57,135 nucleotides of DNA from Gemmatimonadota bacterium (GTDB lineage Bacteria > Gemmatimonadota > Gemmatimonadetes > Longimicrobiales > Gaopeijiaceae): positions 1 to 57,135 of the forward strand of contig SLSF01000048.1 of assembly GCA_007130605.1 (NCBI GenBank). The letters are read 5' to 3'. This document shows, one piece after another, positions 791-5,384 of the stretch; positions within the stretch are counted from its first letter, which is position 1, and each line of letters starts with the position of its first letter. Made by a program: the position numbers and the translations under genes. The notes under the pieces were generated by a model that had not been told where the DNA came from, searched no databases, and saw only the letters and a program-made list of their open reading frames with translations.

Positions 791-1995
791 CAGCCCCCTC
801 CTGCCCGGCTCCGGGCGAGCCTCCGGACGGCCTCTTCGAGAAGGGCATCCGAGGTCGCGTAGCTGAGCCGCACGAAGCGGTCATCGCCGAAGGCGACGCC
901 GGGGACCATGGCCACCCCGACCTCCTCCAGGAGATCCGAGCACCACGCCTCGGAACCGTCGATCCCGTCCCCATAGCGGCTGTCGGTCCGGATGAAGAGG
1001 TAGAAGGCGCCGCCGGGCTCCAGGATCTCCAGCCCGGGAAGGGCCTCCCTGATCCCCGCCATGACCTGGTCCCTCCGGCGACGAAAGGCCTGGACCATGG
1101 CGGCGATCTCGCGGTCGGCATCGTCGGGCCTGGAGAGGGCCTCGAGGGCGGCCATCTGCGAGGGGGTGGCGGCGTTGGAGGTGGAGTGGCTCTGGAGTGC
1201 GCCGAGCTTCTTCGCGATCTCGGGAGAGGTCACCGCGTACCCGATCCGCCACCCGGTCATGGCGTACGCCTTGGAGACGCCATCGATGATGACGGCCGAC
1301 CCCACGTCCTCCGCATCCAGGTCCATGAGACCCGGTGCCGGCGCCCCCGCCTCGTCGAAGTGGATGCGTCGGTAGATCTCGTCGCTCAGAAGGTGGATGC
1401 CCCGGTCCCGGCACCAGCGGGCCACCGCCTGGAGTTCTTCTGCGGAGTAGACGGCGCCGGTGGGATTGGAGGGCGAACAGAGGATGAGTCCCCGGGTCGC
1501 CGGCGTGCGATGGGCCTCGAGGATCTCGGGGTCCAGCCGGAATCCGCCCTCCTCGGGCCCTGCCACGAAGACCGGCTCGGCCCGGGCGAGGGAGACGATC
1601 TGGGGATAGCTTGTCCAGTAGGGCGTGGCGATCATCACCTCGTCGCCCGGCCCGAAGAGCGCCATGCACGCATTGTAGAGGGCCTGCTTCGCGCCGCATG
1701 TGACCACGACGCCGTCGGAGGTCACGGACCAGCCCTTCCCCCCCCCGCTTCGCATCATCGACGCCGCCACCGCCGAGCGGAGTTCGGGAAGGCCGGGGGC
1801 GGGGGTATAGCGGGTGTGCCCCTCGCGGATGGCCCGGATCCCTGCCTGGGCGATCCAGTCGGGGGTGGGAAAGTCGGGCTCCCCCGCGCTCAGATCGATG
1901 ATGTCGCGCCCTTCGGTCTTGAGCTTCTTGGCAAGGGTGCTCACCGCGATGGTGGCGGAAGGGCGGAGGCGAGCGATGTTGGAACTGAAGTCCAT
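790..1995 (-). CDS. Pyridoxal-phosphate aminotransferase, class I (aspartate aminotransferase-like)
   Basis: With the start at MDFSSNIARL the protein is 401 residues, typical for prokaryotic aspartate/aromatic aminotransferases of subgroup I-gamma. Visible PLP features are the SNPTG motif (N177), SDEIY (D205, Y208), the Schiff-base lysine K242 in SKAYAMTGWR, and the substrate-carboxylate arginine in FVRLSYATSD near the C-terminus. An upstream ATG would add 24 residues with no family similarity, so the shorter start is preferred, although no strong Shine-Dalgarno precedes it. It is coupled by TGATG to the O-methyltransferase gene. Amino donor is likely glutamate or aspartate; exact specificity is not determinable. 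Confidence 0.9.
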   Translation of the reverse strand: MDFSSNIARLRPSATIAVSTLAKKLKTEGRDIIDLSAGEPDFPTPDWIAQAGIRAIREGHTRYTPAPGLPELRSAVAASMMRSGGGKGWSVTSDGVVVTCGAKQALYNACMALFGPGDEVMIATPYWTSYPQIVSLARAEPVFVAGPEEGGFRLDPEILEAHRTPATRGLILCSPSNPTGAVYSAEELQAVARWCRDRGIHLLSDEIYRRIHFDEAGAPAPGLMDLDAEDVGSAVIIDGVSKAYAMTGWRIGYAVTSPEIAKKLGALQSHSTSNAATPSQMAALEALSRPDDADREIAAMVQAFRRRRDQVMAGIREALPGLEILEPGGAFYLFIRTDSRYGDGIDGSEAWCSDLLEEVGVAMVPGVAFGDDRFVRLSYATSDALLEEAVRRLARSRAGGG

Positions 1996-2090
1996 GAGAG
2001 GTCGGGGACACGGGGAACGGATCAACTCCCGGGAATCCGGGGTCCCCAATATGCCCCGGTCCATCACCGGACAGCAAGAAGCCTCCCGAC

Positions 2091-2666: not shown

Positions 2667-2969
2667 ATGGCCGGGTACGTACGCAAGACTGCCCTTTCGC
2701 CCGCCGAGGCGCTGGAGCGGGCCGAGAAGATCCTCCCCGAACGGATCGGACTCACCCGGAGCAAGGGCTCCGGGCACTCCGCCACCTACACGGGGGAGGA
2801 GGGGACGGTGACGCTCAAGGCGCATCCCCACTACTATTACACCGAGGTGGTGGCCCAGACCGATGGCCTCCGGACCTCGCGGATCGACTACGAGATACAG
2901 AACTTTCTGAACCGGCTCCCCTACGAGCCGGAAGATACCGGTGGGCCGGGGTCGGGCGACCCCTCCTGA
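2667..2969 (+). CDS. Conserved-looking small protein, function unknown (100 aa)
   Basis: A 100-residue soluble protein beginning MAGYVRKTAL. It has a helix with a heptad-like pattern (SPAEALERAEKILPERIGLT), then strands TVTLKAHPHYYYTEVVAQ, and an acidic, Pro/Gly-rich tail. No signal peptide, membrane segment or metal-binding cluster is visible. It begins 24 bases after the DsbA-fold gene and ends 53 bases before the DEAD-box-like gene, in the same direction, so the three are probably cotranscribed. I do not recognise the family. Confidence 0.65.
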   Translation: MAGYVRKTALSPAEALERAEKILPERIGLTRSKGSGHSATYTGEEGTVTLKAHPHYYYTEVVAQTDGLRTSRIDYEIQNFLNRLPYEPEDTGGPGSGDPS

Positions 2970-3022: not shown

Positions 3023-4546
3023 ATGGACACCTTTGAGGAAGTGGGGCTTGCCCCCGAACTGGTCGAGTCCCTGATCGCCGAGGGGATCGAGCGTCCCACC
3101 ACCCTGCAGGCCGAGGCGATGCCGGTCCTGATGAAGGGGAATTCGGCGCTGGTCCGAGGGGGCTCGGGCGCCGGAGTCCTGGTGACCTACGGGGCGCCCC
3201 TCCTGGACCGGATCGAGCCCGGTGGAAGCTCCCCTCGCGGACTCGTGATGGTCGCCGACCGGAGCCACGCCGTCCGCCTGGCCCGCGCCCTCGCCCGCCT
3301 GGGCACCTCGCTGGGACACCGGGTCGCCGCCATCGGTGGTCCCTTCGCCCTCCCCGAACATGCCGACATCCTCTTCGCCACACCCGAGGACCTGGTCTCA
3401 CCCGCCAGCGCCGACCGCGTGGTGCTGGATGGGATCGAGGTCTGGGTCATCGATGGCGCCACCGCCCTCATGGGCGATGAGAGCGCACGGAAGGCGGTGG
3501 AGATGGTCCTGGAGCGACTCCCTGCCGGTCAGGGCGTGGTTCTCGCCGACCCGGTCACCGAGAAGGTGAGCGATCTGGTGGAGCGCCGGCTCCCCCGGGC
3601 GGTCCACATCCCCTCGGACGCCGCGCGACCCGACACCGAGGGTGCCCCGGTGGAACGGGGACGCCTCCGGGTCCATGCCGCCGAGGACACTCCCGGAGAT
3701 GTCCTCCCCTCGCTGGTGGACACCCTCCTGCAGGAGGATGGCGTCCGGCACCTCCTCCTCTTCTTCCGGGGCGAGGACCAGGCCGCCGACGGGGGGGATC
3801 TCCTGACCCTCCACGGATTCCACGCCGGCGCCCCGGGGGATCCGGATGTGCCGGTCTGGCTCGCGGTCGACGCCATGGAGGCCCGCCAGGCCATTCGCGA
3901 AGCCGGAGTGGGCGAATCGGTGCTGGCACTCTCGGTGGGCGCCCCCGCCGATGTGGACGAGCTCGACCGGAGGCACGGGGGGTCACGGGATGGCGGGGTG
4001 ATCCTGGCGCCAACCCGGCAGCAGCCACACCTCCGCCGGCTCGCCGGCGAAGCCGGGTACCGGGTGGAGTGGATCTCCGAGGAGTTCTCGGTGGCGGAGG
4101 CCGCCGTCCGGCAGCTTGAAGCGGAGATCGCCGACGCCATCGCCAACGCCGACCTCGCTCCCTCGCACATGATGCTGGAGCGGGTGGTGCGAGAGCATGG
4201 CGCCGCCCAGGTGGCGGCGGCGCTGACCTGGCTCCTTCGGTCGGGGCGGGTGGCGCCCGATGCCAGTGCGCCCACGGCATTCGTCCGCCTCTTCCTCTCC
4301 ATCGGGAGCCGCGACGGCGTGAGCCCGGGAGACCTCCTGGGGGCCATCACCGGCGAAGCCGAGATCGATGGCGAGCGGGTGGGCCGAATCGATATCCGCG
4401 ACACCTTCTCGAAGGTGGATGTGGACGAGAAGGTGGCCGGTCGGGTCATCGAGGCCCTGAACGGGATCTCGGTGCGCGGTCGGAGTGTTCGCGCCGACTA
4501 CGATCGGGGAGGCCCCCGGCCGCAAAGCCGTCGCCCCAAGCGATGA
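3023..4546 (+). CDS. Degenerate DEAD-box helicase-like protein with C-terminal DbpA RNA-binding domain
   Basis: A 507-residue protein with the outline of a DEAD-box RNA helicase. The Q-motif is kept (PTTLQAEAMP, Q29), but motif I reads RGGSGAGVL (residues 45-53) with Val52 in place of the Walker A lysine and Leu53 in place of Thr. Motif II is DGAT (144-147) instead of DEAD, the PTREL motif is ADRSH, and SAT is ADP (175-177). The arginine-finger motif VI is not recognisable. Residues about 420-495 (FVRLFLSIGSRDGVSPGDLL onward) match the DbpA-type RNA-binding domain that recognises 23S rRNA hairpin 92 in DbpA, followed by a basic tail. ATP hydrolysis is not expected; RNA binding is. A GGGAG Shine-Dalgarno precedes the ATG. 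Last gene before a strong terminator. Confidence 0.88.
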   Translation: MDTFEEVGLAPELVESLIAEGIERPTTLQAEAMPVLMKGNSALVRGGSGAGVLVTYGAPLLDRIEPGGSSPRGLVMVADRSHAVRLARALARLGTSLGHRVAAIGGPFALPEHADILFATPEDLVSPASADRVVLDGIEVWVIDGATALMGDESARKAVEMVLERLPAGQGVVLADPVTEKVSDLVERRLPRAVHIPSDAARPDTEGAPVERGRLRVHAAEDTPGDVLPSLVDTLLQEDGVRHLLLFFRGEDQAADGGDLLTLHGFHAGAPGDPDVPVWLAVDAMEARQAIREAGVGESVLALSVGAPADVDELDRRHGGSRDGGVILAPTRQQPHLRRLAGEAGYRVEWISEEFSVAEAAVRQLEAEIADAIANADLAPSHMMLERVVREHGAAQVAAALTWLLRSGRVAPDASAPTAFVRLFLSIGSRDGVSPGDLLGAITGEAEIDGERVGRIDIRDTFSKVDVDEKVAGRVIEALNGISVRGRSVRADYDRGGPRPQSRRPKR

Positions 4547-4632: not shown

Positions 4633-4917
4633 TTACTTCACGGCGTCCTTGAGTCCCTTACCGGCACGGAAGCCGGGGGTCTTCGTCGCGGGAATCTTGA
4701 TCGACTCACCGGTGCGGGGGTTCCGGCCGGTCCGGGCCTTCCGCTTCTTGCTCTCGAAGGTTCCGAATCCGGTGATCTGAACGCGGTTCCCCTTCTTGAG
4801 GGCCTTCGCAATGATTCCGGAGTCGGTGGCGAAGAGGGCGTCGATGGCGCGACCGGAGTCGGCCTTCGTCATTCCCGTCTCATTCGCCAGGGCATCCACG
4901 AGTTCGGACTTGTTCAT
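4633..4917 (-). CDS. HU family DNA-binding protein
   Basis: A 94-residue histone-like protein starting [20 protein letters not shown]. The beta-arm signature of HU/IHF ([20 protein letters not shown], then [10 protein letters not shown]) and the C-terminal helix ([14 protein letters not shown]) are complete. It bends and compacts DNA as a dimer. The ATG at 4917 is chosen because AGGAG (4930-4926) lies eight bases upstream; a GTG start at 4926 would sit on top of that ribosome-binding site. Single gene with its own upstream region and terminator. Confidence 0.95.
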
Positions 4918-5384
4918 CAGGATCACTCCTCTCTGGGTGATGGTGATGGATCAGGGCAGCCCCGAACGCATTCGGGCTCGGCCGACCCGTCGGTGTGTGG
5001 GCGCCATCCGGATCTCTGTCGGACTCCGGCTGCGCCGTGGTGCTTCCGGCCACTGGACGGCTCCCACGGAGCGTGCCGAAAGTTGAAGTGGAAGGGTAAG
5101 TACCACCCCGGTGAGCGTCAAGAGAGGGGGACCCCCGGAAATCCGCTTGAATACTGGCTTCCGAGCCTATCGGAAGGGAAACGGATGGTGCGCCCGAAGC
5201 CGGACGGGGTCAGGCCGACCCCATCTCGAAAGCCGTCATTCCCTTGCGCCATATGCGGTTACAGCGCTAGTTCCATGGAAGGAGCGGGCGGCGAGCGCCC
5301 CTTCTCCATACCCTCTCCACCGAGGTCCGGTCGGGCCATTTCGTCCAATGGCGATCGGACGGTCCCTCCTGACGCTGCGGCCCA
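4918..5384. other. Intergenic region upstream of HU and of the zinc-ribbon/rimK operon
   Basis: 467 bases with no convincing gene. It contains the HU 5' leader, a small hairpin CCCGAA-CGCA-TTCGGG (4961-4976) in that leader, and a weak minus-strand promoter candidate at 5093-5121. It presumably also drives the plus-strand operon starting at 5385, but no plus-strand promoter stands out. Confidence 0.5.
5093..5121 (-). promoter_or_regulatory. Candidate HU promoter (TTGACG-17-TACCCT)
   Basis: On the minus strand TTGACG (5121-5116) is followed after 17 bases by TACCCT (5098-5093), which fits the relaxed TAnnnT -10 form common in GC-rich genomes. This would give a leader of about 170 bases for the HU mRNA. 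Based on pattern only. Confidence 0.3.

Follow-up and report, generated by a model that had tools for sequence, protein, structure and literature searches.

A DEAD-box pseudohelicase kept by nearly the whole class Gemmatimonadetes, as a probable ATP-independent RNA-binding scaffold or chaperone

The stretch of DNA analysed here in its full length of 57,135 nucleotides (the window) carries, at positions 3023-4546 of the forward strand, a gene for a 507-residue protein in which a DEAD-box core is joined to a DbpA-type RNA-binding domain (RBD), and it raises the question of whether such a core can still hydrolyse ATP and, if it cannot, what the protein is kept for. The start codon is backed by orthologs that share M-x-S/T-F-E-D/E-L-G at the same position. 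In the Pfam search, the RBD (PF03880) was matched over residues 422-491 (positions 4286-4495) with 82.8 bits against a gathering score of 25.6, while the DEAD family gave a weak match of 35.7 bits that was confined to residues 26-167. Between the two lies a DeaD/CshA-type dimerization-like helical segment (residues 357-409; positions 4091-4249), which is marked by a weak match to DeaD_dimer (PF25399; 21.4 bits against a gathering score of 23, with 21.7 bits for the ortholog L060) and by an alignment to CshA (5ivl) that extends to profile position 408. The protein ends in a short basic tail, DRGGPRPQSRRPKR (4502-4543). When NCBIfam helicase equivalogs were scored on it, none came near its cut-off. 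An AlphaFold model, built from two sequences, reached a pLDDT of 41.5, too low for use.

The motifs were read from an alignment of the protein with 13 canonical helicases, E. coli DbpA among them. The Q-motif region (3032-3109) is intact, with F4, P25-T26 and Q29 in place. The P-loop (3158-3181), by contrast with the GxGK[TS] of an active helicase, reads G46-G-S-G-A-G-V52-L53, such that the Walker A lysine is replaced by valine (codon 3176-3178) and the glycines G49 and G51 are retained. Motif II (3452-3463) is DGAT in place of DEAD, in which the first aspartate (D144) is kept and the catalytic glutamate is gone, and motif III (3545-3553) is ADP in place of SAT. The second RecA-like domain is a shortened remnant (3635-4057), recognized by profile-profile alignment to canonical helicases; its motif V has become WLAVDAMEA, and DRRHGGSRDG (3965-3994) occupies the site of the HRIGRTGR of motif VI, leaving neither motif V nor the arginine fingers of motif VI. 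The changes that the earlier note had read in motifs I, II and III, together with the unrecognisable motif VI and the intact Q motif, were thus confirmed by alignment, as was its description of the whole as a DEAD-box pseudohelicase with a DbpA-type RBD. From these losses, the protein is very probably unable to hydrolyse ATP.

The same losses recur in the orthologs, where the earlier note had proposed to look for them. A match to the window protein was found in 57 of 59 relatives, mostly as full-length orthologs, with identities mainly of 43-61% for members of the window's family and of 33-41% for members of its order. The catalytic glutamate was absent from all 61 aligned orthologs of the window's own order, and among the 60 whose sequence spans the P-loop, 51 had no Walker A lysine; a search of this own-order set for close relatives with intact motifs, which would have spoken for error or decay, returned none. 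The Q-motif glutamine was present in 60 of 60 own-order orthologs covering the site, the first aspartate of motif II in 43 of 61, and Q29, G49 and G51 were invariant wherever covered. With its glycines unchanged throughout the order, the P-loop has not simply been destroyed. When 18 members of three further families were added, one of the 79 motif-read pseudohelicases had the glutamate, nine (all of family f3) had the Walker A lysine, and none had the second arginine of motif VI; all three residues were present in 13 of 13 canonical controls.

In a larger set of 124 pseudohelicases, obtained from a tally of 125 rows by removing by hand a canonical helicase cut by the end of its locus (L120), the glutamate was found once, motifs V and VI never, and the Walker A lysine 14 times (nine members of f3 and five of f11); 14 of 14 canonical controls kept the glutamate, the lysine and motifs V and VI. 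Stray arginines in the motif VI column of a few f5 and f11 rows were treated as alignment noise because the HRxGR context is absent there. The one pseudohelicase with an intact DEAD is encoded at L108 (3964-5763, reverse strand); its near relative at L109 has DGAD. The families with a confirmed pseudohelicase are f1 (the window's own), f2, f3, f4, f5, f7 and f11. Matches were returned from 148 of 150 genomes in a phylum-wide search and from 186 of 198 in a class-wide one, both counts including canonical DeaD; E-values fail to separate canonical DeaD from the pseudohelicases of distant families, and members were therefore counted after motif reading. Five genomes of f8 were searched for a pseudohelicase and none was found, and f9, which belongs to another class, gave weak matches only, as judged by score. 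A scan of genome contigs with peptide seeds yielded a single relative, and a scan of viral contigs yielded none.

By the Nei-Gojobori method, the RecA parts of the three closest pairs had a dN/dS of 0.02-0.14 and their RBDs one of 0.02-0.04, with values of 0.1-0.6 reached in wider pairs; by this measure the core of the pseudohelicase is under purifying selection. Loss of catalytic residues is thus combined with conservation of the gene by selection, as expected of a pseudoenzyme, and the loss of ATPase function that the earlier note had proposed is well supported by the lost motifs, the selection and the single clade described below. As far as alignments and substitution ratios can tell, the dead version is kept under selection by nearly the whole class Gemmatimonadetes.

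In the tree, all the pseudohelicases formed one clade (support 100/100), whose neighbours in the tree are the phylum's own DeaD helicases with an RBD (89/85). The stem of the clade is long (0.9 changes per column) and leaves some room for long-branch attraction, against which synteny speaks: a divergent class I/II aminotransferase gene (793-2067, reverse strand) and a convergent gene for an HU-type DNA-binding protein (4636-4950, reverse strand) flank the window's gene and are neighbours conserved across families, one or both standing beside the pseudohelicase in f1-f5 and f7, which supports one ancestral locus. Phylogeny and synteny together indicate that the family is class-wide, vertically inherited and of a single origin. 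Descent from the DEAD-box fold is documented by hhalign, in which the family aligned with canonical helicases over 431 columns (E 1.1e-56), covering the two RecA domains as well as the RBD. The best full-profile match in the PDB was CshA (5ivl; profile positions 1-408, including its C-terminal part), which points to an ancestor of the CshA/DeaD type that carried a dimerization segment, and not clearly to DbpA itself. A DbpA ortholog that has merely lost its ATPase was considered and rejected, as the NCBIfam DbpA equivalog (NF008744) gave 90.1 bits against a curated cut-off of 524, and the best full-length match was to CshA.

Overall, the reading that we favour, with a probability of roughly 0.6, is that of a class-wide DEAD-box pseudohelicase of CshA/DeaD descent whose most likely role is that of a dimeric scaffold or chaperone that binds RNA independently of ATP. 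The dead pair of RecA domains and the dimerization segment would form a platform for protein docking and dimer formation, and a C-terminal element would grip structured RNA, probably rRNA or another abundant RNA; this element would be the DbpA-type RBD in the window, an Arg/Gly/Pro-rich tail in some relatives, and both in others. The dimer is suggested by the match to the dimerization segment and RNA binding by conserved contact positions, while the scaffold role, with a part in ribosome or other RNP assembly, is what we infer from the whole.

The alternative C-terminal elements were encountered in the sister family f5, in which at least 20 pseudohelicases (L158-L177 and L154) have no RBD, and the dimerization-like segment is followed by a tail of 41-155 residues composed of 25% Arg, 17% Gly, 16% Pro and 11% Asp. 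No RBD was found in any open reading frame of these loci. Seven of the genomes lack PF03880 altogether, and the remainder have it in a separate open frame, a canonical DeaD where identified. Mapped on the tree, the presence and absence of the RBD required five changes, at least two of them forced by strong branches, which puts the independent losses of the RBD in f5 at two or more. An intermediate form, in which the dead core is followed by an Arg-rich linker, an RBD and an Arg-rich tail, is encoded at L151 (784-2688, reverse strand). The dN/dS of the core in the members without RBD was 0.07-0.26, by which their core, too, is under purifying selection. With the RBD lost in f5 and the core still there, what stays constant across the family is the dead core together with the dimerization-like segment, and the RNA-binding end can, on this comparison, be exchanged. 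This counts against the view of the earlier note that the motor was lost and target recognition retained: the first half holds, and the second fails for f5, which shed the recognition domain and kept the core. It is conceivable, and we put it forward tentatively at somewhat below even odds, that this is an ancient bacterial family whose function resides in the dead core itself, as a scaffold or RNP assembly platform with an RNA-binding end that may be either a folded RBD or a disordered Arg/Gly-rich tail, and that it is a bacterial counterpart of the eukaryotic protein Utp25 in the assembly of ribosomes or RNPs.

The RBD belongs to a family common to DbpA, DeaD/CsdA and Hera-like helicases, and the solved structure nearest to that of the window protein is E. 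coli DbpA (GALTGDIGLDGADIGKI in the window protein, GAITGEAEIDGERVGRI in DbpA). Guanine is read through main-chain amides by I436, G437 and I439 of YxiN and by V461, G462 and V464 of Hera, and the K463A substitution in Hera lowers affinity more than 25-fold (PMC3695512). The guanine-reading motif [IV]G[RK]I is kept in the window protein as V453-G454-R455-I456 (4379-4390), equivalent to YxiN I436-G437-I438-I439 and Hera V461-G-K463-V, and Arg or Lys occupies the position of Hera K463 in 76 of 78 pseudohelicase RBDs, whereas two canonical DeaD proteins of the phylum have Ala or Thr there. Because these contact positions are kept, RNA binding by the domain is likely. The arginines of PTREL and TPGR, through which a helicase core contacts RNA, are mostly lost as well, so that the core may make no contact with RNA.

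In the earlier note, the dead core with its recognition domain had led to the proposal of an ATP-independent ribosome-assembly factor or rRNA-hairpin clamp. In the specific form of this proposal, the RBD would anchor the dead protein on helix 92 of 23S rRNA, near the peptidyl transferase centre, as a 50S assembly clamp. The kinship of the RBD to that of E. coli DbpA and the kept guanine reader agree with this, and the pseudohelicase is the only PF03880 protein in most genomes of its own family and could stand in for DbpA there; the window's genome (~93% complete) has this single PF03880 domain, and a canonical DbpA or DeaD with RBD was sought in it and not found. However, targets vary among the RBDs of this class, with YxiN binding the hairpin-92 loop and Hera GGGPyr single strands (PMC3695512), and K427, with which YxiN reads a uridine in that loop (PMC3695512), corresponds to G444 in the window protein, although glycine is likewise found in Hera and in E. 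coli DbpA itself. Together with the CshA/DeaD-type descent, the relatives that have the core and no RBD, and the seven genomes devoid of PF03880, this leaves the loss of ATPase standing and the clamp not established, and we regard it as unlikely.

A role for nucleotide, as opposed to its hydrolysis, has to be weighed against the order in which the motifs were lost. Members of f3 (loci L047-L060) and five of the six of f11 (L178, L179, L181, L182 and L183) have a GxGKT P-loop, DGxS for DEAD and no motif VI, and may bind ATP without hydrolysing it. The tree places f11 beside f7 with moderate support (80/86) and f3 beside f1 and f2 (98/97), from which the Walker A lysine would have been lost at least three times independently (in f4 and f5 together, in f7, and in f1 and f2 together), barring regain. 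Parsimony offers an alternative of two changes, a loss and a regain in f3; the three or more losses are preferred because f11 also keeps GSGKT. Motifs V and VI are absent from every member and the glutamate from all but one, so that those losses were probably the earliest, suggesting an order in which motifs II, V and VI went first and motif I later and repeatedly. The living states form a series: the P-loop is intact and the glutamate gone in f3 and f11; the lysine is gone and the Q motif kept in f1 and f2; the Q motif is lost too in f4, f5 and f7, with the P-loop wholly lost in f4 and f5; and the RBD is gone in part of f5. The invariant Q29, G49 and G51 of the window's order, the frequent first aspartate of motif II and the full GSGKT of f3 and f11 would suit a switch in which the Q motif and glycine loop bind an adenine nucleotide that sets the conformation of the protein, and nucleotide could still matter in that order. 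Nonetheless, the lysine was lost repeatedly, and the gene persists in f4 and f5 without either Q motif or P-loop, such that the family as a whole can do without nucleotide binding. A switch is possible in f3, in f11 and perhaps in f1 but cannot account for the family in general, and as a reading it is decidedly unlikely.

Regulation of an active DEAD helicase through heterodimerization, as a dominant-negative or activating partner, is a further alternative, for which the dimerization-like segment is kept, many genomes of the window's family encode an intact DEAD helicase at a distance of about 4 kb, and pseudoenzymes often regulate active paralogs (PMC9539457). That helicase, however, represents a different type, and beyond this family no such neighbour was seen. 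Since the canonical RBD-carrying DeaD paralog is absent from most own-family genomes, including the window's, heterodimerization with it is unlikely as a general function, and we consider a regulatory role of this kind rather improbable. Motif losses in one sequence alone could be decay or sequencing error, but orthologs across the class share them in open frames without stops and with dN/dS well below 1, and this explanation was rejected as having practically no weight.

The favoured scaffold or chaperone reading can be set beside several known systems. CshA and DeaD (CsdA) share the two RecA-like domains, probably the dimerization segment and, in DeaD, the PF03880 RBD; the pseudohelicase differs in having no catalytic glutamate and no motifs V and VI, in the mostly lost Walker A lysine and in the shortened second RecA domain. 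DbpA and YxiN share the C-terminal RBD with its guanine reader; in the pseudohelicase, by contrast, the core is apparently inactive, the RBD is preceded by a dimerization-like segment, and YxiN K427 has no equivalent. The order RecA1-RecA2-dimerization-RBD-basic tail and the basic residue at the K463 position are found in Hera of Thermus thermophilus, which, however, is an active ATPase and helicase. The closest conceptual precedent is Utp25/Def of the yeast SSU processome, with its DEAD-box descent, vestigial motifs and link to RNA (PMC9539457), although it is eukaryotic and no RBD of the PF03880 type is reported for it. In Deinococcus radiodurans PriA, a bacterial helicase family has likewise lost its ATPase in one phylum and kept the binding of nucleic acid and partners (PMC4504706); PriA, however, is a DNA replication-restart factor of another helicase family. 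Utp25 was only the second pseudohelicase to be proposed, after that PriA (PMC9539457), and no paper on a Gemmatimonadetes pseudohelicase family was found in the literature searched. Few pseudohelicases being described, one that an entire bacterial class retains in natural intermediate states is of interest, and the series makes the use of a DEAD-box core without ATP testable in culturable Gemmatimonadetes; Pfam-based genome annotation would label its members as helicases or DbpA-domain proteins.

Two further features of the neighbourhood deserve mention. The intact DEAD helicase, which has no RBD, lies about 4 kb upstream on the opposite strand at L065, L116-L121, L126 and L127; it is conserved in the window's family, and in the window its place would be beyond the contig end. 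Directly upstream of the pseudohelicase, a conserved open reading frame of 100 amino acids (2667-2969, forward strand) gave no match in Pfam; its homologs adjoin the pseudohelicase in 10 loci, and the two genes possibly form one transcription unit.
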